Below, piece by piece: positions 4,533 through 18,337 of a DNA stretch of 24,986 bases (position 1 is its first letter; each line of letters starts with the position of its first letter). A program made the translations under genes and the position numbers. A model generated the notes under the pieces. It did no database searches and was not told where the DNA came from. It worked only from the letters and a program-made list of their open reading frames with translations. This DNA is from a virus. The DNA lies in the IMG/VR virus record IMGVR_UViG_3300030085_001476, positions 1-24,986 of that record. One strand, 5' to 3'.

Positions 4533-4802
4533 ATGACACCTGATGGATGGGAAGGTCTGCAACTTGCAGATCCTGAGATTGCAAGAAAGCAGCAGGTAGA
4601 TAAGGACGATGTAGATCGCCTGTACCTGCGCGTGTTCGGCAGTGATGATGGGCAGAAGCTGCTCACCCATCTGCGATCACTGACGATAGAGCAGCCGACC
4701 TGGTACCCCGGCGAGGATGCCAGCCACGGTTTTGCTCGTGAGGGCCAGAACAGTCTGGTTCGCGAAATCGAGCGGCGTATGCAAAGGGCAAGAGAACTAT
4801 GA
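4533..4802 (+). CDS. Bbp19-like phage protein
   Basis: An 89-aa protein. The core is LYLRVFGSDDGQKLLTHLRS then QPTWYPGEDASHGFAREGQNSLVREIERR, closely matching the small conserved phage domain named after Bordetella phage Bbp19. It is usually found between portal and scaffold/capsid genes, as here. It is soluble, mostly helical at both ends, with no membrane segment. Its biochemical role is not known to me; position suggests head assembly. AAGGA (4519-4523) lies nine bases before the ATG, and the gene overlaps the scaffold gene by ATGA. Confidence 0.85.
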   Translation: MTPDGWEGLQLADPEIARKQQVDKDDVDRLYLRVFGSDDGQKLLTHLRSLTIEQPTWYPGEDASHGFAREGQNSLVREIERRMQRAREL

Positions 4803-5605
4803 ACGACGAAACTGAGGGGCTGCTGGCCGATGCTCAACCACAGAGCGACGACAACCAGCAGCAAGCCGAAGAGCAGTCTATTTCACACCTGCAACCAGAC
4901 ACCGAGCCATCGCTTGACGATGTCACACTGGCGACAGAGGATGACGAAATCACCTTTGAAAGGCCGGAGTGGTATCCCGACAAGTTCTGGGATGAGAGTG
5001 ATGGGCCGGATCTTGAGAACCTGGTCAAGAGCTACAATGAGCTTCAGAAGGCTTTCTCGCAAGGCCAGCATAAAGTGCCGGATGAGTATGATCAGTCTAT
5101 CTTTACACAGGCTGGCATTCCAGAGGACGATGAGCTGTATGCGACGTACCGTGACTGGGCCTCGCGCAATGGCGTTAGCCAGGCAGCGTTCAACGAGCTG
5201 GCCGGCAAGTTTATTGAGATGGCTGGCGCAGAGAATGAGCAAGCTGCTATCTCGCACAAAGAAGAGTACGAGAAGCTGGGCCCGAATGCCGATGCCACCA
5301 TCAAGTCGATGACGACCTGGGCGCAGAGCCTGGTCAACAAAGGCGTCTGGGGGCAGGATGATTTTGAGGAGTTCAAGATCATGGGCGGCACAGCGCAAGG
5401 CTTGCGCGCCTTGCAGAAGGTGCGGAGCTACTATGGCGACAGGCCCATCCCTGTCGATGTCGGGCCGGTAGAGGGCGCGCCGTCGAAAGAGGAGCTGATG
5501 GCTATGGTCGGCAAGCCTGAATACAAGAGCGACCCAGCGTATCGCGCGAAGGTCGAGAAGGCTTTCGAGCAAGTCTACGGCACTGAAGACTACACACCAA
5601 TGTGA
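4799..5605 (+). CDS. Capsid assembly scaffolding protein
   Basis: A 268-aa, strongly acidic protein between the portal and capsid genes, the place of T7 gp9-type scaffolds. The first 55 residues are low in complexity and rich in Q, E and D. A PEWYPDKFWDE then LVKSYNELQKA segment (about residues 59-85) is typical of podoviral scaffolds. The rest is largely helical and charged, and the C-terminal region contains basic residues that could contact the capsid protein. Scaffolds guide coat subunits into a prohead and then leave or are degraded. ATGA overlaps the upstream gene. A terminator follows within six bases, so this ends the first transcription block. Confidence 0.85.
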   Translation: MNDETEGLLADAQPQSDDNQQQAEEQSISHLQPDTEPSLDDVTLATEDDEITFERPEWYPDKFWDESDGPDLENLVKSYNELQKAFSQGQHKVPDEYDQSIFTQAGIPEDDELYATYRDWASRNGVSQAAFNELAGKFIEMAGAENEQAAISHKEEYEKLGPNADATIKSMTTWAQSLVNKGVWGQDDFEEFKIMGGTAQGLRALQKVRSYYGDRPIPVDVGPVEGAPSKEELMAMVGKPEYKSDPAYRAKVEKAFEQVYGTEDYTPM

Positions 5606-5610
5606 TGAAG

Positions 5611-5642
5611 AAGCGGGGGCGTTTACAGCTCCCGCTTTTTTT
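5611..5642 (+). terminator. Rho-independent terminator after the scaffold gene
   Basis: A nine-base-pair stem with one G-T pair (left arm 5611-5619, right arm 5629-5637) has a nine-base loop and runs into seven Ts (5636-5642). It follows the scaffold stop by five bases and would end or attenuate transcripts from the portal block before the capsid gene. Confidence 0.85.
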
Positions 5643-5650
5643 CATATACT
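5622..5650 (+). promoter_or_regulatory. Candidate sigma70 promoter for the capsid gene, laid through the terminator
   Basis: A -35-like TTTACA (5622-5627, 5 of 6 matches to consensus) and a -10-like TATACT (5645-5650, 5 of 6) are separated by exactly 17 bases. The -35 element sits in the terminator's loop, and the -10 follows its T-run. A start about seven bases downstream, near 5657, would begin the capsid mRNA at the first hairpin of its leader. The match is seen directly; activity is inferred. Confidence 0.6.
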
Positions 5651-5656
5651 TTGCGC

Positions 5657-5738
5657 GACAGACAATCGTCTTCGACCTGTCAGACCCGCTTGGGGGCGTA
5701 GCGTTTATGCCCAAGCCGCAGCCCGAAAGGACACCTGC
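5657..5738 (+). promoter_or_regulatory. Structured 5' leader of the major capsid mRNA
   Basis: Three candidate hairpins lie in series. The first pairs GACAG 5657-5661 with CTGTC 5677-5681, with an inner GTC/GAC pair (5668-5670 with 5674-5676). The second pairs GCTTGGG 5688-5694 with CCCAAGC 5710-5716, seven perfect base pairs. The third pairs GCAG 5718-5721 with CTGC 5735-5738, enclosing CC-GAAA-GG (5723-5730), a GNRA-capped stem. No convincing reading frame uses this interval. It may stabilise the mRNA or tune translation of the capsid gene. Confidence 0.5.
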
Positions 5739-5777
5739 TAGGCGCAATCAGTGTTAACTTTTGTATAGGAGTGAGAA

Positions 5778-6611
5778 ATGGCTGTAGGCATTTCTTCCGC
5801 TTTCGTACAACTGTTCGATGCCGAGGTGAAGCAGGCATACCAGGGCGCACGCGCTCTTGCCGGCGTAACTCGTGAGCGGACAAACGTCGAAGGCAACCAG
5901 GTGAAGTTCCCGAAGATCGGGAAAGGCACCGCAACTGTTCGCGTACCTCAGACCGATGTGACACCGTTGAACGTGACCTATTCGCAGATCACCGCCACGA
6001 TGTCCGACTATATCGCTGCTGAGTACTCGGATATTTTCCAGCAGTCCAAAGTCAACTTCGATGAGCGCCAGGAGCTGGTGCAGGTCGTGGGTGGCGCTAT
6101 TGGTCGCCGCATGGATCAGCTCGTCATTGACGCGCTGAACGCTGCGTCGTCGCCTTCTACCGTTGCAACCTCGGTTGGCGGTGCAGGCACCAACATGAAC
6201 CTCGCTAAGCTGCTTGCAGCTAAGAAGGCTCTGGACGCCAACAACGTGCCGGCAGACAACCGCTGCATGATCATCCATGCAAACGGCCTGTCCGCGCTTC
6301 TCGACGAGACTGAGCTGACCAGCAGCGACTTCGCTACTGTCAAGGCTCTCTCGACTGGCGAGATCGACACGTTCCTCGGCTTCAAGTTTATCACCATTGG
6401 TGACCGTGATGAGGGTGGCCTGCCGCTCCCATCGACCCGTACTTGCTTTGCGTTCCACCGCGACGCAGTCGGGCTGGGCATCAGCATGAACCAGCGGAGT
6501 GAGATCAACTACGTTCCTGAGAAGACTTCGTTCCTTGTGTCTTCGATGTTCTCGGCTGGTGCCGTTGCCATCGATGACGAGGGCATCGTCAAAATCTCGG
6601 CAACCGAGTAG
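5778..6611 (+). CDS. Major capsid protein
   Basis: A 277-aa coat protein of the HK97-fold class found in T7-like marine podoviruses. Visible features: the N-arm AYQGARALAGVTRERTNVEGN (about residues 20-40); the QVKFPKIGKGTATVR segment; DYIAAEYSDIFQQSKVNFDERQELVQVV (about 77-104), which reads as the E-loop-to-spine-helix region; GRRMDQLVIDALN; and a C-terminal beta-rich part ending VAIDDEGIVKI. The length is shorter than T7 gp10 (about 345 aa) but normal for this subgroup. AGGAG (5767-5771) lies six bases before the ATG. It has its own leader and candidate promoter, consistent with needing the highest expression in the genome. The small decoration-type gene follows 15 bases later. Confidence 0.93.
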   Translation: MAVGISSAFVQLFDAEVKQAYQGARALAGVTRERTNVEGNQVKFPKIGKGTATVRVPQTDVTPLNVTYSQITATMSDYIAAEYSDIFQQSKVNFDERQELVQVVGGAIGRRMDQLVIDALNAASSPSTVATSVGGAGTNMNLAKLLAAKKALDANNVPADNRCMIIHANGLSALLDETELTSSDFATVKALSTGEIDTFLGFKFITIGDRDEGGLPLPSTRTCFAFHRDAVGLGISMNQRSEINYVPEKTSFLVSSMFSAGAVAIDDEGIVKISATE

Positions 6612-6626
6612 AGAGGAGACTGATCA

Positions 6627-6899
6627 ATGGCTTATGCTAATTCCGGCCTGAACGTGATCGGTGCAGCAAAGAAAGGCAATGCGCCTTCTCTTTACACCTA
6701 CACCTCAACTGATGCTATCGCGACAGTGAACACTGCCGGATACTTCAACGACCTGTCTGACACTTTGGCGGTAGGCGACATCATCTTTGTGCATGATTCA
6801 AACACGCCGACCTTGTCCATCGTGATGGTCGCGTCGAATGCTTCAGGTGTTGTCGATGTCACTGACGGTACTACCGTCGCCATGACCGACAGCGACTAA
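6627..6899 (+). CDS. Small beta-rich protein downstream of capsid, probable head decoration protein
   Basis: A 90-aa protein with alternating beta pattern: YTSTDAIATVNTAGYFND, then LAVGDIIFVHDSNTPTLSIVMVASNASGVVDVTDG. Proteins with this motif commonly follow the coat gene in marine podoviruses. They are thought to decorate or cement the capsid or form a head fibre base, but I know of no direct test for this subgroup. It has no signal peptide. AGGAG (6614-6618) lies eight bases before the ATG. It shares a transcript with the capsid gene, since a GC-rich hairpin terminator follows within seven bases. Confidence 0.78.
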   Translation: MAYANSGLNVIGAAKKGNAPSLYTYTSTDAIATVNTAGYFNDLSDTLAVGDIIFVHDSNTPTLSIVMVASNASGVVDVTDGTTVAMTDSD

Positions 6900-6905
6900 A
6901 CTGGT

Positions 6906-6936
6906 GGGGCCGGTTCGCCGGCCCCCCTTCTCTTTC
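6906..6936 (+). terminator. Terminator after the capsid/decoration pair
   Basis: A perfect eight-base-pair GC stem (6906-6913 with 6918-6925) is closed by a TTCG tetraloop and followed by a T-rich but C-interrupted tract (6928-6936). The hairpin is very stable. The weak T-run suggests partial read-through into the tail genes, which have no obvious promoter of their own here. Confidence 0.75.
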
Positions 6937-14122: not shown

Positions 14123-16968
14123 TGGCGCGTGTCACCAAAGATCTGGACGAGATGCAGGAAGCCGCCGGCGTTCAGGCGGCGCTGTTCCCTGACGCGCCGG
14201 CAGAAGAGACTGTGCAGCCTGAGATAGCGCCAGAGGCACGAGAAATCTTAGAGGTGACTGGCCCCATCGCCACAGATGAGGGTGAGCCTGTACAGGTCGC
14301 CGGCCTTGTGGATGTCGTCACAGATCTTGGCAGCAAGGTCACAAAGCGCATCGCCGAAGCTGAGAAGCGCGTTATACCAGGTGTGCCGCCAGAGGACATC
14401 CAGCAGGTCGGTGAGCGCGTTGTTGTGCGCCAGGCTGACCCCGACGACATTGCGGCGCTGGAGACTATCGTCGGCAAGGACTACACCAAAGGTCTGAACC
14501 TGCCGGCGATTATGACTGCGTCTGGTGAGTTTGATCTGGCCGGCTACATGCAGCAGGTCAAGAACCTGAACAGTGATCTGTTTGAGCGCGCACGGCGCGG
14601 CACCTTGAACTATGACACGCTGTTGAGCCTGGCAGAGCAGCAAGGCACAGACCGCGTCCTAAAGAAGTGGCTGACGCGAGACCCTGGCCAAGGCGAGACG
14701 GCAGAGGATGTGCTGGCGGCTCTGATCTTGGCGCGTGATCTGACCAAGCAAACCGGCAGAAAGTTTGAAGAGGCGCGCGCTGCCAATGATCCAGCCACGC
14801 GCAAGCAGCTCTTCGCGCAGGCAGCGCAGTATATGACAATGGAGTTCACGCTGTACTCCAACCTGTCCGGTGCCACCAGTGAGGCTGGCCGCTTGCTATA
14901 CGCCATGCAGCAGGCGCAGAAGATCGGCGTGGACACGCGGCGCAGTGATGAGCTGCTGAAGATCCTAGAGCAGGAAGGCGTCGATATAGAACATCTGGGT
15001 GAGATGTACCTGGCACTGCCAGCGCCGGCACGGCCACAGTTTACGCAGGGGATTATGAGCAAGGGCGCTGATGTCCTGACTGAGGTGTTCATCAACTCTA
15101 TCCTGTCATCGCCTGTGACGCACGGCGTCAACATTGCCGGCAACGGCATCTTCAGCTTCTACAAAGGCATTGAGGAGACACTGGCTGGCGGCATTGGCGC
15201 AGTACGCACCATGCGGCCTGGTGCCAACCAGGAGCGCGTCTACATGCGCGAGGGCATGATCCAGATGGACAGCATCCGCGCATCGTTCCTTGATGCGCTG
15301 ATCGTGTCAGGCAAGGCGTTCATCAAAGAAGAGGCCGGCGACTTTGCGTCAAAGATTGATGTCCGCAACCAGCGCGCCATTGGCACGACTGGAGATGTGA
15401 CCGAGATCTTCAACCAAGCCAGGCAAGGCAACTATGGCGCTGCCACCATCAACACGCTCGGCACTGCCGTCCGCATGTCTGGCCGGTTCTTGCTGGCAGA
15501 AGACGAATTCTTCAAGGCGATTGGCTACCGCGCGTCGGTACACAAGCAGGCACTGGCTAGGTCGCTGTCGCTGTATGACGAGATGATTGCCGGCGGCAAG
15601 ACTGTGGACGAGGCCAAGATTGCAGCGGCAGAGCTGCGGAACAGCATCATCAATGACCCGCCAGAGGCAGTGATGACCACAGCGCGAGATGCGGCGCGTG
15701 AGCTGACGTTCCAAGGCGATCTGGACGGCTTCCTTGGCAACATGCAGCCGTTCATGTCCCACCCCGCCACCAAGCTGTTCGGTGTGCCGTTCTTCAAGAC
15801 GCCGGTCAATGTGTTGCGCGAGGTCGGCGCTAGATCGCCTATGGTTCTGGCCAACCCTGGTTTTTACAGCGCCATCAAGGCAGGTGGCCGCGAGGCCGAC
15901 ATGGCGATGGCAAAGCTGACTATGGGGACAGGCATCATGGGTACGTTCTCCATGATGGCGGCTGGCCTATCAGGGCCGCAGAACCAAGTGATTATTATGG
16001 GGGCCGGCCCGACTGACCCGCAGGCGCGTCAGGCTATGGATCGCTTGGGCCTGTACCCGCACACCATCAACATCCGGCAGGCTGACGGCACCTACAAGGG
16101 CGTCACCTACTCGCGCCTCGACCCGCTGTCGGGCATGTTGGCCATTGCGGCTGACTATGCGTATTACGCGCAGTATGAGGACGATAACGATGTGCTGACC
16201 AACCTGGCGACTGCCGCCGGCCTTGGCATGTACAACTACGCGCTGGAGATGCCGTTCCTTGAGGGCGTCGCAGATCTGTCGCGCATCCTGAACCAGCCAG
16301 ACCCAGGGCTGGCATTTGAGCAGCTTCAATCATTCATGTCTGAGCGCGCCAGCACAGCGGCGCTGTCTGCCATTCCGACAGTGTCGTCGCTGGGTGCCAC
16401 TATTGAGCGGGTGCAACATCCGCATGCGTCCAACACGATGATGCCGCCTGTCGGCATCTTTAACGAAGACCCGACGCAGTTGCCGCCATACATGCGCGGC
16501 TTCTACACGGCGTTGCAAAGGGCCAAGGCGCGGCACCCGATGTTCAGCAAAGACTTGCCGCCATCGCTCAATCTGTGGGGCGAGGTGCGGATGCAGGGCA
16601 AGGGCGTTGGCTATGAGCTGTGGTCGCCCATCCGCATCAACGAGGCAAAATACAGAGGGCTGGATAAAGAGCTGATGAACCTGGGCGATGGCTTGGCTAT
16701 GCCCAGCAAAAAGATTAACGGCGTCTTGCTCAATGCCGAGCAGTACAACTTTATGATTCGCCGGCTCAATGAGCCGATAGCAGGAGAGCCTAGACTACTA
16801 GATGCACTGAACGATCTAATCTATTCCTCGGACTACGGTTTACTTACCACAAAGGAAGACAAGCTGGCCGCAATCCGAGCGACAGCAGAGCCGTACTATG
16901 CGGCTGGCCGCAAGCTGTTGATGGCTGAAGACCCTTCTCTGGCAGACCGTATTAACGCGGCGAGGTAA
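14122..16968 (+). CDS. Largest internal virion (ejection) protein, T7 gp16-like position, LPD38-like region
   Basis: A 948-aa protein, the last and largest of the ejection block. The acidic N-terminal 100 residues are followed by long helical regions. MSKGADVLTEVFINSILSSPVTHGVNIAGN (about residues 312-340) and PFMSHPATKLFGVPFFKTPVNVLREVGARSP (about 543-575) are typical of the large-polyvalent-protein-associated domain LPD38 shared by phage and conjugative-element proteins injected with DNA. A hydrophobic segment (about 599-617) and GPTDPQARQAMDRLGLYPHTI follow. I see no lytic transglycosylase motif, which T7 gp16 carries. It probably forms the inner part of the trans-envelope channel. The LPD38 label is from memory of the family pattern. 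It is shorter than T7 gp16 (about 1,300 aa). Confidence 0.78.
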   Translation: MARVTKDLDEMQEAAGVQAALFPDAPAEETVQPEIAPEAREILEVTGPIATDEGEPVQVAGLVDVVTDLGSKVTKRIAEAEKRVIPGVPPEDIQQVGERVVVRQADPDDIAALETIVGKDYTKGLNLPAIMTASGEFDLAGYMQQVKNLNSDLFERARRGTLNYDTLLSLAEQQGTDRVLKKWLTRDPGQGETAEDVLAALILARDLTKQTGRKFEEARAANDPATRKQLFAQAAQYMTMEFTLYSNLSGATSEAGRLLYAMQQAQKIGVDTRRSDELLKILEQEGVDIEHLGEMYLALPAPARPQFTQGIMSKGADVLTEVFINSILSSPVTHGVNIAGNGIFSFYKGIEETLAGGIGAVRTMRPGANQERVYMREGMIQMDSIRASFLDALIVSGKAFIKEEAGDFASKIDVRNQRAIGTTGDVTEIFNQARQGNYGAATINTLGTAVRMSGRFLLAEDEFFKAIGYRASVHKQALARSLSLYDEMIAGGKTVDEAKIAAAELRNSIINDPPEAVMTTARDAARELTFQGDLDGFLGNMQPFMSHPATKLFGVPFFKTPVNVLREVGARSPMVLANPGFYSAIKAGGREADMAMAKLTMGTGIMGTFSMMAAGLSGPQNQVIIMGAGPTDPQARQAMDRLGLYPHTINIRQADGTYKGVTYSRLDPLSGMLAIAADYAYYAQYEDDNDVLTNLATAAGLGMYNYALEMPFLEGVADLSRILNQPDPGLAFEQLQSFMSERASTAALSAIPTVSSLGATIERVQHPHASNTMMPPVGIFNEDPTQLPPYMRGFYTALQRAKARHPMFSKDLPPSLNLWGEVRMQGKGVGYELWSPIRINEAKYRGLDKELMNLGDGLAMPSKKINGVLLNAEQYNFMIRRLNEPIAGEPRLLDALNDLIYSSDYGLLTTKEDKLAAIRATAEPYYAAGRKLLMAEDPSLADRINAAR

Positions 16969-16980
16969 ATCGTGTACAAT
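16952..16980 (+). promoter_or_regulatory. Candidate sigma70 promoter before the fibre genes
   Basis: TTAACG (16952-16957, 4 of 6 to consensus) and TACAAT (16975-16980, 5 of 6) are spaced 17 bases apart, straddling the end of the 948-aa gene in the only gap before the fibre gene. A start near 16987 would leave a very short leader with AAAGGA at its 5' end. A chance match cannot be excluded. Confidence 0.38.
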
Positions 16981-17002: not shown

Positions 17003-18337
17003 ATGGCTGACTATAATATCAACGCAGTGACGCGCCGCGTCGTGTTCACCGGCTCTGCCGGCTTGGGGCCGTATGCATTCACCTTTGAAATTTTGGATGA
17101 CAATGACCTGGCGATCTTCCTGAACGCCACACTGCTGACACTAAGCACAGACTATACCGTCACAATCAATCCAAATGGCACCGGCTCAGTGACGCTGGTG
17201 ACTGGCGGCTCAATCTCAACTGCGCCAACAGCCGATGACACTATTGTGATTTTGGGTGCGCGTGACATTGAGCGCGTCACAGACTTTGTGACCGCCGGCG
17301 ATCTGCTGGCGTCTAGCCTCAACGAGCAGCTCGACAGCAACATCATCTTTGAGCAGCAGATTGATGAGCGTGTAGATCGCTCTATCAAGTTCCCAGCATA
17401 TGACAACTTTACCGGCGACAATGTGTTGCCGGCAGCATCGTCACGCGCCGACAAGCTGCTCAGATTTGATGCAAATGGCGACATTGGAGTTGAGACTGTA
17501 ACGGCCATCAGTGCCAATGCTGTGGTCGGTGCCAACTTTGTTAACAACACTTTCACCGGCGATGGCTCAACCACTGGCTTTACGATGACCACAGAGCCGG
17601 GCTCTAAGAACAACGCCCAGGTTTACATTGACGGCGTCTACCAGCTCAAGTCCACCTTTTCTGTATCAAGCACAACCCTGACATTTACTGAGGCACCGCC
17701 TCTGAATGCAAATGTCGAAGTGATAATCGGCAATGCTGTTGATACATTCACGAGCGACGCAACCAATGTGAACATCACAGACAGCTCTGGGTACTACGCG
17801 GCCTCTACAGTAGAGGCTACTCTTTCGGAGATCGGCGATACTCTGTTTGCAAAAACATCTGCTGGCGCTGGGATTACTAGCGGCACCGGCACTGTTTACA
17901 AGGCCGGCGCGTCACGCGGCGGTGACATTATCATCACTAGGATATTCATTGATTTGACTGGCCTTAACAGCGGCGCTCAGGCTGGCGATATCATTGGAGT
18001 AAATGGCACATCATCTGTCTGCCATATTGGTCAGATTACAGCCGCAACAAACGGCACAATCTTCTGGGGCAAGATGACCTGCATTGAGACGCCGGCAGGT
18101 GGTGATACCGATATTGATTTGTATGCGGCAAATGAAGGCACTGGCGTTGAGGATGGCGCGATTGCTGATCTAACAGAGACGCAGCTAATCAATGCCGGCA
18201 CAGCATCGGCTGGCAATGAAGATTTAGTATCTGCTGTACCATCAGCAAATCAATATTTGTATCTAGTGGGGCAAGGCACTGCCAATGCCACATACACTGC
18301 TGGCCAGTTTCTCATTGAGCTTTATGGATATGCGTGA
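17003..18337 (+). CDS. Tail fibre protein with T7 gp17-type N-terminal anchor
   Basis: A 444-aa fibre. Residues 1 to about 125 match the T7 tail-fibre N-terminal domain that docks on the nozzle/adaptor: VFTGSAGLGPYAFTFEILDDNDLAIFLN, TDYTVTINPNGTGSVTL, IVILGARDIERVTDF, LLASSLNEQLDSNIIFEQQIDERVDRSIKFP. The rest is a repetitive S/T/G/N-rich beta region, including a TFTGDGSTTGFTM then YIDGVYQLKSTFSV module (about residues 180-220), a small domain common in fibres. The C-terminal part is probably a receptor or adaptor contact. AAAGGA precedes the ATG by nine bases. At 444 aa it is shorter than T7 gp17 (about 550 aa), which fits its acting as an anchor for the two proteins encoded next. Confidence 0.88.
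   Translation: MADYNINAVTRRVVFTGSAGLGPYAFTFEILDDNDLAIFLNATLLTLSTDYTVTINPNGTGSVTLVTGGSISTAPTADDTIVILGARDIERVTDFVTAGDLLASSLNEQLDSNIIFEQQIDERVDRSIKFPAYDNFTGDNVLPAASSRADKLLRFDANGDIGVETVTAISANAVVGANFVNNTFTGDGSTTGFTMTTEPGSKNNAQVYIDGVYQLKSTFSVSSTTLTFTEAPPLNANVEVIIGNAVDTFTSDATNVNITDSSGYYAASTVEATLSEIGDTLFAKTSAGAGITSGTGTVYKAGASRGGDIIITRIFIDLTGLNSGAQAGDIIGVNGTSSVCHIGQITAATNGTIFWGKMTCIETPAGGDTDIDLYAANEGTGVEDGAIADLTETQLINAGTASAGNEDLVSAVPSANQYLYLVGQGTANATYTAGQFLIELYGYA

Follow-up and report, generated by a model that had tools for sequence, protein, structure and literature searches.

The window analysed here is a stretch of DNA of 24,986 nt from a marine phage, whose structural block shows the T7-like gene order of a podovirus. 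The element under study lies in the gap between two genes that the original prediction had taken for the scaffold and capsid genes. Matches to PHROG profiles agree with that reading (Table 1): the upstream open reading frame (ORF), with its TGA stop at 5603–5605, corresponds to a head-assembly (scaffold) gene, and the downstream ORF to the gene for the major head protein. The hairpin behind the small ORF that follows the capsid gene is very stable, and comparable hairpins are found approximately 300 nt past the capsid stop in many relatives, which suggests a closed two-gene capsid unit. Directly in front of the capsid gene, the ribosome-binding site AGGAG is located outside the leader fold described below and behind TTAACTTT, and looks open in RNA folding. 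The TTAACTTT sequence, which is present in 20 of the 46 leaders of the window's own clade (g1), precedes the Shine-Dalgarno sequence in an arrangement that we take to resemble the translation enhancer of T7 gene 10. Elsewhere in the window, a promoter-like site with a score of 9/12 (TTAACG-17-TACAAT, 16952–16980) lies directly before ORF 17003–18337, for which no PHROG match was obtained, and possibly marks the start of a second late unit.

Table 1. Positions of genes and predicted signals around the capsid gene of the window.
Feature	Position	Strand	Evidence and remarks
Scaffold/head-assembly gene	4799..5605	+	PHROG phrog_1052 head assembly, E 9.5e-9; upstream of element
Intrinsic terminator (predicted)	5611..5642	+	Stem 5611–5620/5628–5637, loop 5621–5627, T-run 5636–5642; fold, arm re-pairing in relatives
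-35 element TTTACA	5622..5627	+	In terminator loop; 5/6 vs consensus
-10 element TATACT	5645..5650	+	Just past T-run; 5/6 vs consensus
Leader hairpin H1, GACAG-ACAA-UCG..CGA-C-CUGUC	5657..5681	+	Covariation; first base = predicted start
H-type pseudoknot (predicted)	5687..5712	+	S1 5687–5690/5700–5703, S2 5694–5699/5707–5712
Leader hairpin H3, GCAG-C-CC..GG-ACAC-CUGC	5718..5738	+	Alignment, covariation; module also in g2 and MEP301-type alignments (A4, A5)
Conserved GGCG, leader 3' edge	5741..5744	+	Alignment
Open A/U-rich ribosome-binding region	5754..5771	+	TTAACTTT 5754–5761, AGGAG 5767–5771
Major capsid protein gene	5778..6611	+	PHROG phrog_3437, E 1.5e-57
Small ORF 3' of capsid gene, in capsid unit	6627..6899	+	
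Terminator-like hairpin GGGGCCGG-TTCG-CCGGCCCC, closing capsid unit	6906..6925	+	Weak T tail

The hairpin downstream of the scaffold gene consists of AAGCGGGGGC, the loop GTTTACA and GCTCCCGCTT, and is followed by the T-run and CATATACT. RNA folding reproduced the hairpin and left TTTACA single-stranded within its loop; the longest form has a free energy of -28.1 kcal/mol, and in this form the T-run is paired as well. The pattern scan did not report the terminator at 5611–5642, probably because its stem reaches into the T-run. The structure nonetheless has the hallmarks of an intrinsic (Rho-independent) terminator, namely a G+C-rich hairpin, a T-run behind it, and compensatory change in related sequences. 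As had been predicted, TTTACA is situated in the terminator loop and TATACT after the T-run, each agreeing with the consensus at five of six positions. The spacer between them is 17 nt long and is made up of the 3' arm and the T-run, and transcription is predicted to start at 5657. With -35 and -10 hexamers at a distance of 16–18 nt and in a conserved position, the site has the features of a sigma70-type promoter, so that promoter and stem-loop terminator are combined in one intergenic element, hereafter the composite. This promoter ranked top of 20 kb in the pattern scan and is the only site in the window, on both strands, that scores at least 10/12; a site of that quality turned up in 0.3% of the shuffles of the intergenic region. 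Overall, the window holds no excess of promoter-like sites (7 found vs 10.4 expected).

A nucleotide search of a phage collection returned no relatives, and relatives were therefore sought via the capsid protein. In a viral contig collection this approach yielded relatives in several clades, and 180 distinct loci were analysed, a number that excludes the HTVC010P-type set. Clade g1 comprises 46 loci, and the composite was assigned in 39 of these: 35 by script, and L010, L043, L045, and L056 by eye. As near-copies inflate locus counts, the main tests were performed on distinct sequences, to which the 39 composite loci contribute 33. Alignments were made with MAFFT, and structures were proposed from those alignments, as a result of which controls with slid structures are biased toward structure; stronger support for the leader fold comes from the shuffle control and from the fact that a g1 model detects g2 leaders. 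All support for the composite and the leader is sequence-based.

Within g1, the spacer is exactly 17 nt in all 33 distinct composites, and the -35 element reads TTTACA in 22 of them, with other TTTACN or TTGCNN hexamers in the remainder. The -35 and -10 elements contain 1.40 and 1.43 bits of information per position, compared to 0.47 and 0.66 bits for the two hairpin arms, which occur in 26 versions. Arms from the same locus fold at a mean of -19.4 kcal/mol, vs -8.7 kcal/mol when arms are swapped to give chimeric hairpins. Because the hexamers stay while the arms vary and re-pair, promoter and terminator are both under selection, and on this comparative evidence both signals are maintained in the same bases. 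When anchored to the leader, the g1 promoter scores a mean of 9.59/12 vs 3.56 ± 0.47 in shuffles, a degree of conservation well above what chance would give. These results bear out the central claim of the original prediction, that a terminator and a sigma70-type promoter are joined in one element before the capsid gene. The alignment of related phages that it had proposed as a check likewise turned out in its favor, as both elements are conserved and the opposite pattern, with the hairpin kept and the hexamers lost, was not seen. The promoters of g2 and of the MEP301-type loci fit the E. coli consensus less well, and this consensus may not be that of the host.

At the predicted start the RNA appears to be structured, a feature on which the original prediction was silent. 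The structured leader spans 5657–5744 and contains two hairpins with a 4x1 internal loop that flank the pseudoknot; the internal loop of H3 is the mirror image of that of H1, and the helices of the pseudoknot are CGCU/AGCG (S1) and GGGCGU/(A)UGCCC (S2). The distance from the end of the -10 element to the last base of the outer 5' arm of H1 is 11 or 12 nt in 41 of 44 g1 loci, and this tight distance suggests that the RNA starts flush with H1, or within 1–2 bases of it. On 33 sequences, the g1 leader is 92.6% paired vs 84.0% when shuffled, and both sides are changed in 82 cells vs 26.8. The pseudoknot shares in these changes: S1 is 99.2% paired with 12 two-sided changes, and S2 is 95.4% paired, with both sides changed in all six pairs. 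RNAalifold proposed a pairing of columns 43–44 with 73–74 in g1, which was rejected for the pseudoknot, where the two-sided changes occur.

For the mixed set L059–L080, a consensus fold restricted to nested pairs failed until the clades were aligned separately. The g2 leader then consists of H1, an extra hairpin, the pseudoknot, and H3 (96.1% paired). The MEP301-type leader (90.6% paired) likewise has an extra hairpin after H1, which is followed by a stem whose CG/CG loop contact is invariant and by H3. In the HTVC010P-type pelagiphages (alignment A6), H1, a middle stem, and H3 are found (98.7% paired). None of 500 shuffles reached the observed paired share in any of the four clades, and structures slid by 1–3 columns drop to 21–48% paired. 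Evidence for the pseudoknot is partial in g2, where S1 has four two-sided cells, and in the MEP301-type leaders, in which S1 never varies. With compensatory helices above both the shuffled and the slid controls, the leader qualifies as a structured cis-acting RNA, and these substitution patterns indicate selection on its fold.

Model R1, for which only g1 sequences were used, placed the leader of most g2 and mid loci in the same position, with E values of 1e-7 to 1e-13 (4e-4 for L059). In most loci of the window's clade it scored 80–108 bits on the + strand and at most 13 bits on the - strand, the reverse-strand scores being near background. Model R2, which was built from the clade of MEP301, matches the single MEP301 record, and HTVC010P-type leaders were not found with it. 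Short or mismatched outer H3 stems explain why a simple motif finder for H1 and H3 failed to pick up MEP301, HTVC010P, and the Manatee Spring phage. The evidence for the pelagiphage-type leader consequently comes from alignment counts, and the leader of the Manatee Spring phage was recognized by eye only. H1 and H3 modules with compensatory changes precede the capsid gene in HTVC010P (L236, upstream of 1201) and in L242–L321, and these modules are kept though the pelagiphage capsids are only approximately 30% identical. No match was found at the leader among the 4227 models of Rfam 15, either in the window (E up to 5) or in ten relatives (E up to 1), and the leader probably represents a previously undescribed RNA family. 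Literature searches, one of which was too broad to inform, retrieved no description of an embedded promoter-terminator or of a capsid leader RNA.

Two single genomes deserve mention here. In MW202572 (L239), a small annotated 'hypothetical protein' before the capsid gene (1086–1175) overlaps an apparent leader, with H1 and H3 assigned by eye, and this ORF is therefore probably spurious. In Vibrio phage 1.182.O (L240, upstream of 1150), H1-like and H3-like modules in the capsid leader outscore 200 of 200 shuffles, possibly extending the leader RNA family.

A search with PF00940, which detects T7 polymerase as a positive control, gave no hit to a T7-type RNA polymerase in MEP301 or SI2, whose genomes are complete. 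The same search detected no such phage-encoded single-subunit enzyme, as a T7-like capsid unit would call for, in a Vibrio relative or in 14 viral fragments, which include the window (its record is itself a fragment). In the paper on MEP301, neither an RNA nor a DNA polymerase was identified (PMC8024684). As the complete relatives lack a T7-type RNA polymerase, a host-type promoter is expected for the capsid unit, and on the same grounds we infer that the composite is used by the host polymerase. The transcript ends and the promoter strength at the composite are likewise predicted.

The site is probably the front end of an insulated capsid unit, comprising a terminator, a host-type promoter, a structured 5' leader, and an open ribosome site. 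Transcripts of the portal and scaffold genes would be terminated, completely or in part, by the hairpin with its T-run. A host sigma70-type holoenzyme would bind the same DNA, with the loop as its -35 element and the bases past the T-run as its -10 element, and a new capsid transcript would begin at about 5657. Starting flush with the leader (H1, the H-type pseudoknot, and H3), this transcript would fold at its 5' end at once. The leader would most likely shield the 5' end of the capsid mRNA from RppH/RNase E-type decay and may bind a protein too, the open A/U-rich ribosome site would drive high capsid synthesis, and the second hairpin (6906–6925) would close the two-gene unit.

The putative function of the leader can be read in more than one way. 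Protection of the 5' end is weakened as an explanation by the HTVC010P-type leaders, which are not obviously flush with a promoter, and binding of a protein is a serious alternative or addition, since the mirrored loop exceeds the needs of simple 5' protection. The leader might thus be autoregulatory or ligand-binding, with the capsid protein, the scaffold protein, a host protein, or a metabolite binding the mirrored loops and controlling translation or RNA stability. We consider this somewhat doubtful as a full account, and it is compatible with an insulated capsid unit. The two inverted copies of the 4x1 loop, with compensatory changes in four clades, would fit such a role, and phage leader pseudoknots such as that of T4 gene 32 offer a precedent by analogy; against it, the ribosome-binding site is open outside the fold, which leaves no obvious off state, and the binding partner is purely putative. 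In a wider and tentative form, the leader could represent an ancient and hitherto undescribed class of regulatory RNAs in phages, in which a dedicated phage or host protein recognizes the mirrored modules and controls capsid output across window-type, OM43 (MEP301), and SAR11 (HTVC010P) podoviruses. The composite would then be the exact-5'-end launcher of one lineage, and the pseudoknot, in this wider form, is backed by covariation in two clades.

Across the lineages, promoter and leader are steady, and the terminator and its overlap with the promoter are variable. In the capsid tree, the composite is characteristic of the clade to which the window belongs, with L138 in addition. Loci L021, L053, and L054 have kept TTTACA and the -10 element with a separate, upstream terminator, and in L033 and the L041 group the promoter is kept without a strong terminator. 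Among the MEP301-type loci a terminator hairpin is present upstream in 37 of 65, of which 28 are apart from the scored promoter and nine are without a scored promoter (one of these being L138). In the g2 and mid clades no terminator was detected in the stretch examined, and g2 does have the leader. As to L138, which belongs to the MEP301 clade, inspection by eye showed TTGCGT in the terminator loop, 17 nt, and TATAAG (upstream of 2610); its label as a composite was set by eye too, and it appears to have evolved the composite independently. As the terminator and the overlap come and go, compaction or insulation is indicated rather than an obligatory timing switch, although the two complexes may still interfere with each other. 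The overlap itself is probably not the function, and by comparison of these sequences it looks like mainly compaction in the window's lineage.

The original prediction had seen in the overlap a possible timing switch, and this part of it does not hold up well. In such a switch a terminating polymerase would block the promoter and capsid transcription would start once upstream traffic falls, or the reverse. A terminating complex and a promoter complex would indeed need the same DNA, the composite is retained in 39 of the 46 loci of the window's clade, and L138, placed by eye, apparently made it independently. Such a switch is nevertheless unlikely, as the close relatives L021, L053, and L054 hold promoter and terminator apart, g2 is without a terminator, and many MEP301-type relatives have both signals apart; a conserved switch should not come apart so freely. 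That only the terminator is functional, and the -35/-10 match a by-product of a favored loop and an A/T-rich tail, is hardly credible: A/T-rich DNA after T-runs readily mimics a -10 element, and TTTA is perhaps just a good loop, but the 17-nt spacing is invariant, the hexamers outlast 26 arm pairs, TTTACA and the -10 element persist in loci that have lost the hairpin or hold it at a distance (L021, L033, L053, L054), and the predicted start is the beginning of the leader RNA. It is also highly improbable that the conserved leader acts as DNA, for example as an origin or packaging site, since its location in a gap between structural genes and the inverted repeats often seen in origins are outweighed by G-U pairs on the + strand, the strong strand bias (80–108 vs at most 13 bits), the conservation of unpaired loops, and the position directly after the promoter.

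An insulated capsid unit of this kind provides a testable picture of how podoviruses without an RNA polymerase of their own could make far more capsid than portal via the host machinery. Terminator and promoter would be selected together in 40 bases, and the sister lineages are natural controls for the overlap. Most important, the capsid message of widespread and abundant marine phages apparently opens with a member of an RNA family that Rfam lacks; as cultured phages (MEP301, HTVC010P) carry the leader, its function is directly testable.

Several known systems resemble parts of this arrangement. Composite promoter-terminator motifs of T4-like phages, the PeSLs, were reportedly described by Arbiol et al. 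in 2010 and Comeau et al. in 2014. PeSLs (promoter-early stem-loop) are cited as such motifs in PMC4503421. As far as titles and citations of the PeSL work convey, the likeness lies in the coupling of a host-type promoter to a stem-loop terminator within an intergenic element of a phage, and the PeSLs are early-promoter cassettes tied to mobile-gene shuffling in T4-like myoviruses, whereas we find a single podovirus element before the capsid gene. On that same limited basis, what sets the present element apart is the -35 hexamer inside the loop, the fixed spacing, and the tie to a structured leader. Confined to a single position ahead of the capsid gene, within the structural block of a podovirus, the composite works like a PeSL but belongs outside the PeSL group of T4-like phages.

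The gene 10 unit of T7 combines the strong promoter phi10, a leader with a stem-loop and the TTAACTTTA translation enhancer, and the terminator T-phi. The capsid unit of the window would be similar in having a separate high-output capsid transcript, a structured 5' end, a TTAACTTT-like sequence, and a terminator after the unit. T7 differs in that it transcribes the unit with a polymerase of its own and lacks an overlap of terminator and promoter, and the predicted leader fold of the window shows no sequence relationship to that of T7 and is much more intricate. By its covariation, the leader is of a known kind, the structured cis-acting leader, but of no family in Rfam 15. Stabilizing stem-loops at the 5' end are known from bacterial and phage mRNAs, for example in the ompA leader, and share with the present leader a 5' end that is base-paired from its first nucleotide or close to it; the present leader instead combines a pseudoknot with two mirrored internal-loop hairpins, conserved across clades whose capsids are as little as approximately 30% identical. 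The pseudoknot in the leader of T4 gene 32 is of the H-type and is located in a phage mRNA leader as well; the two leaders have this in common but differ in architecture, and autoregulation is a feature of the T4 system.
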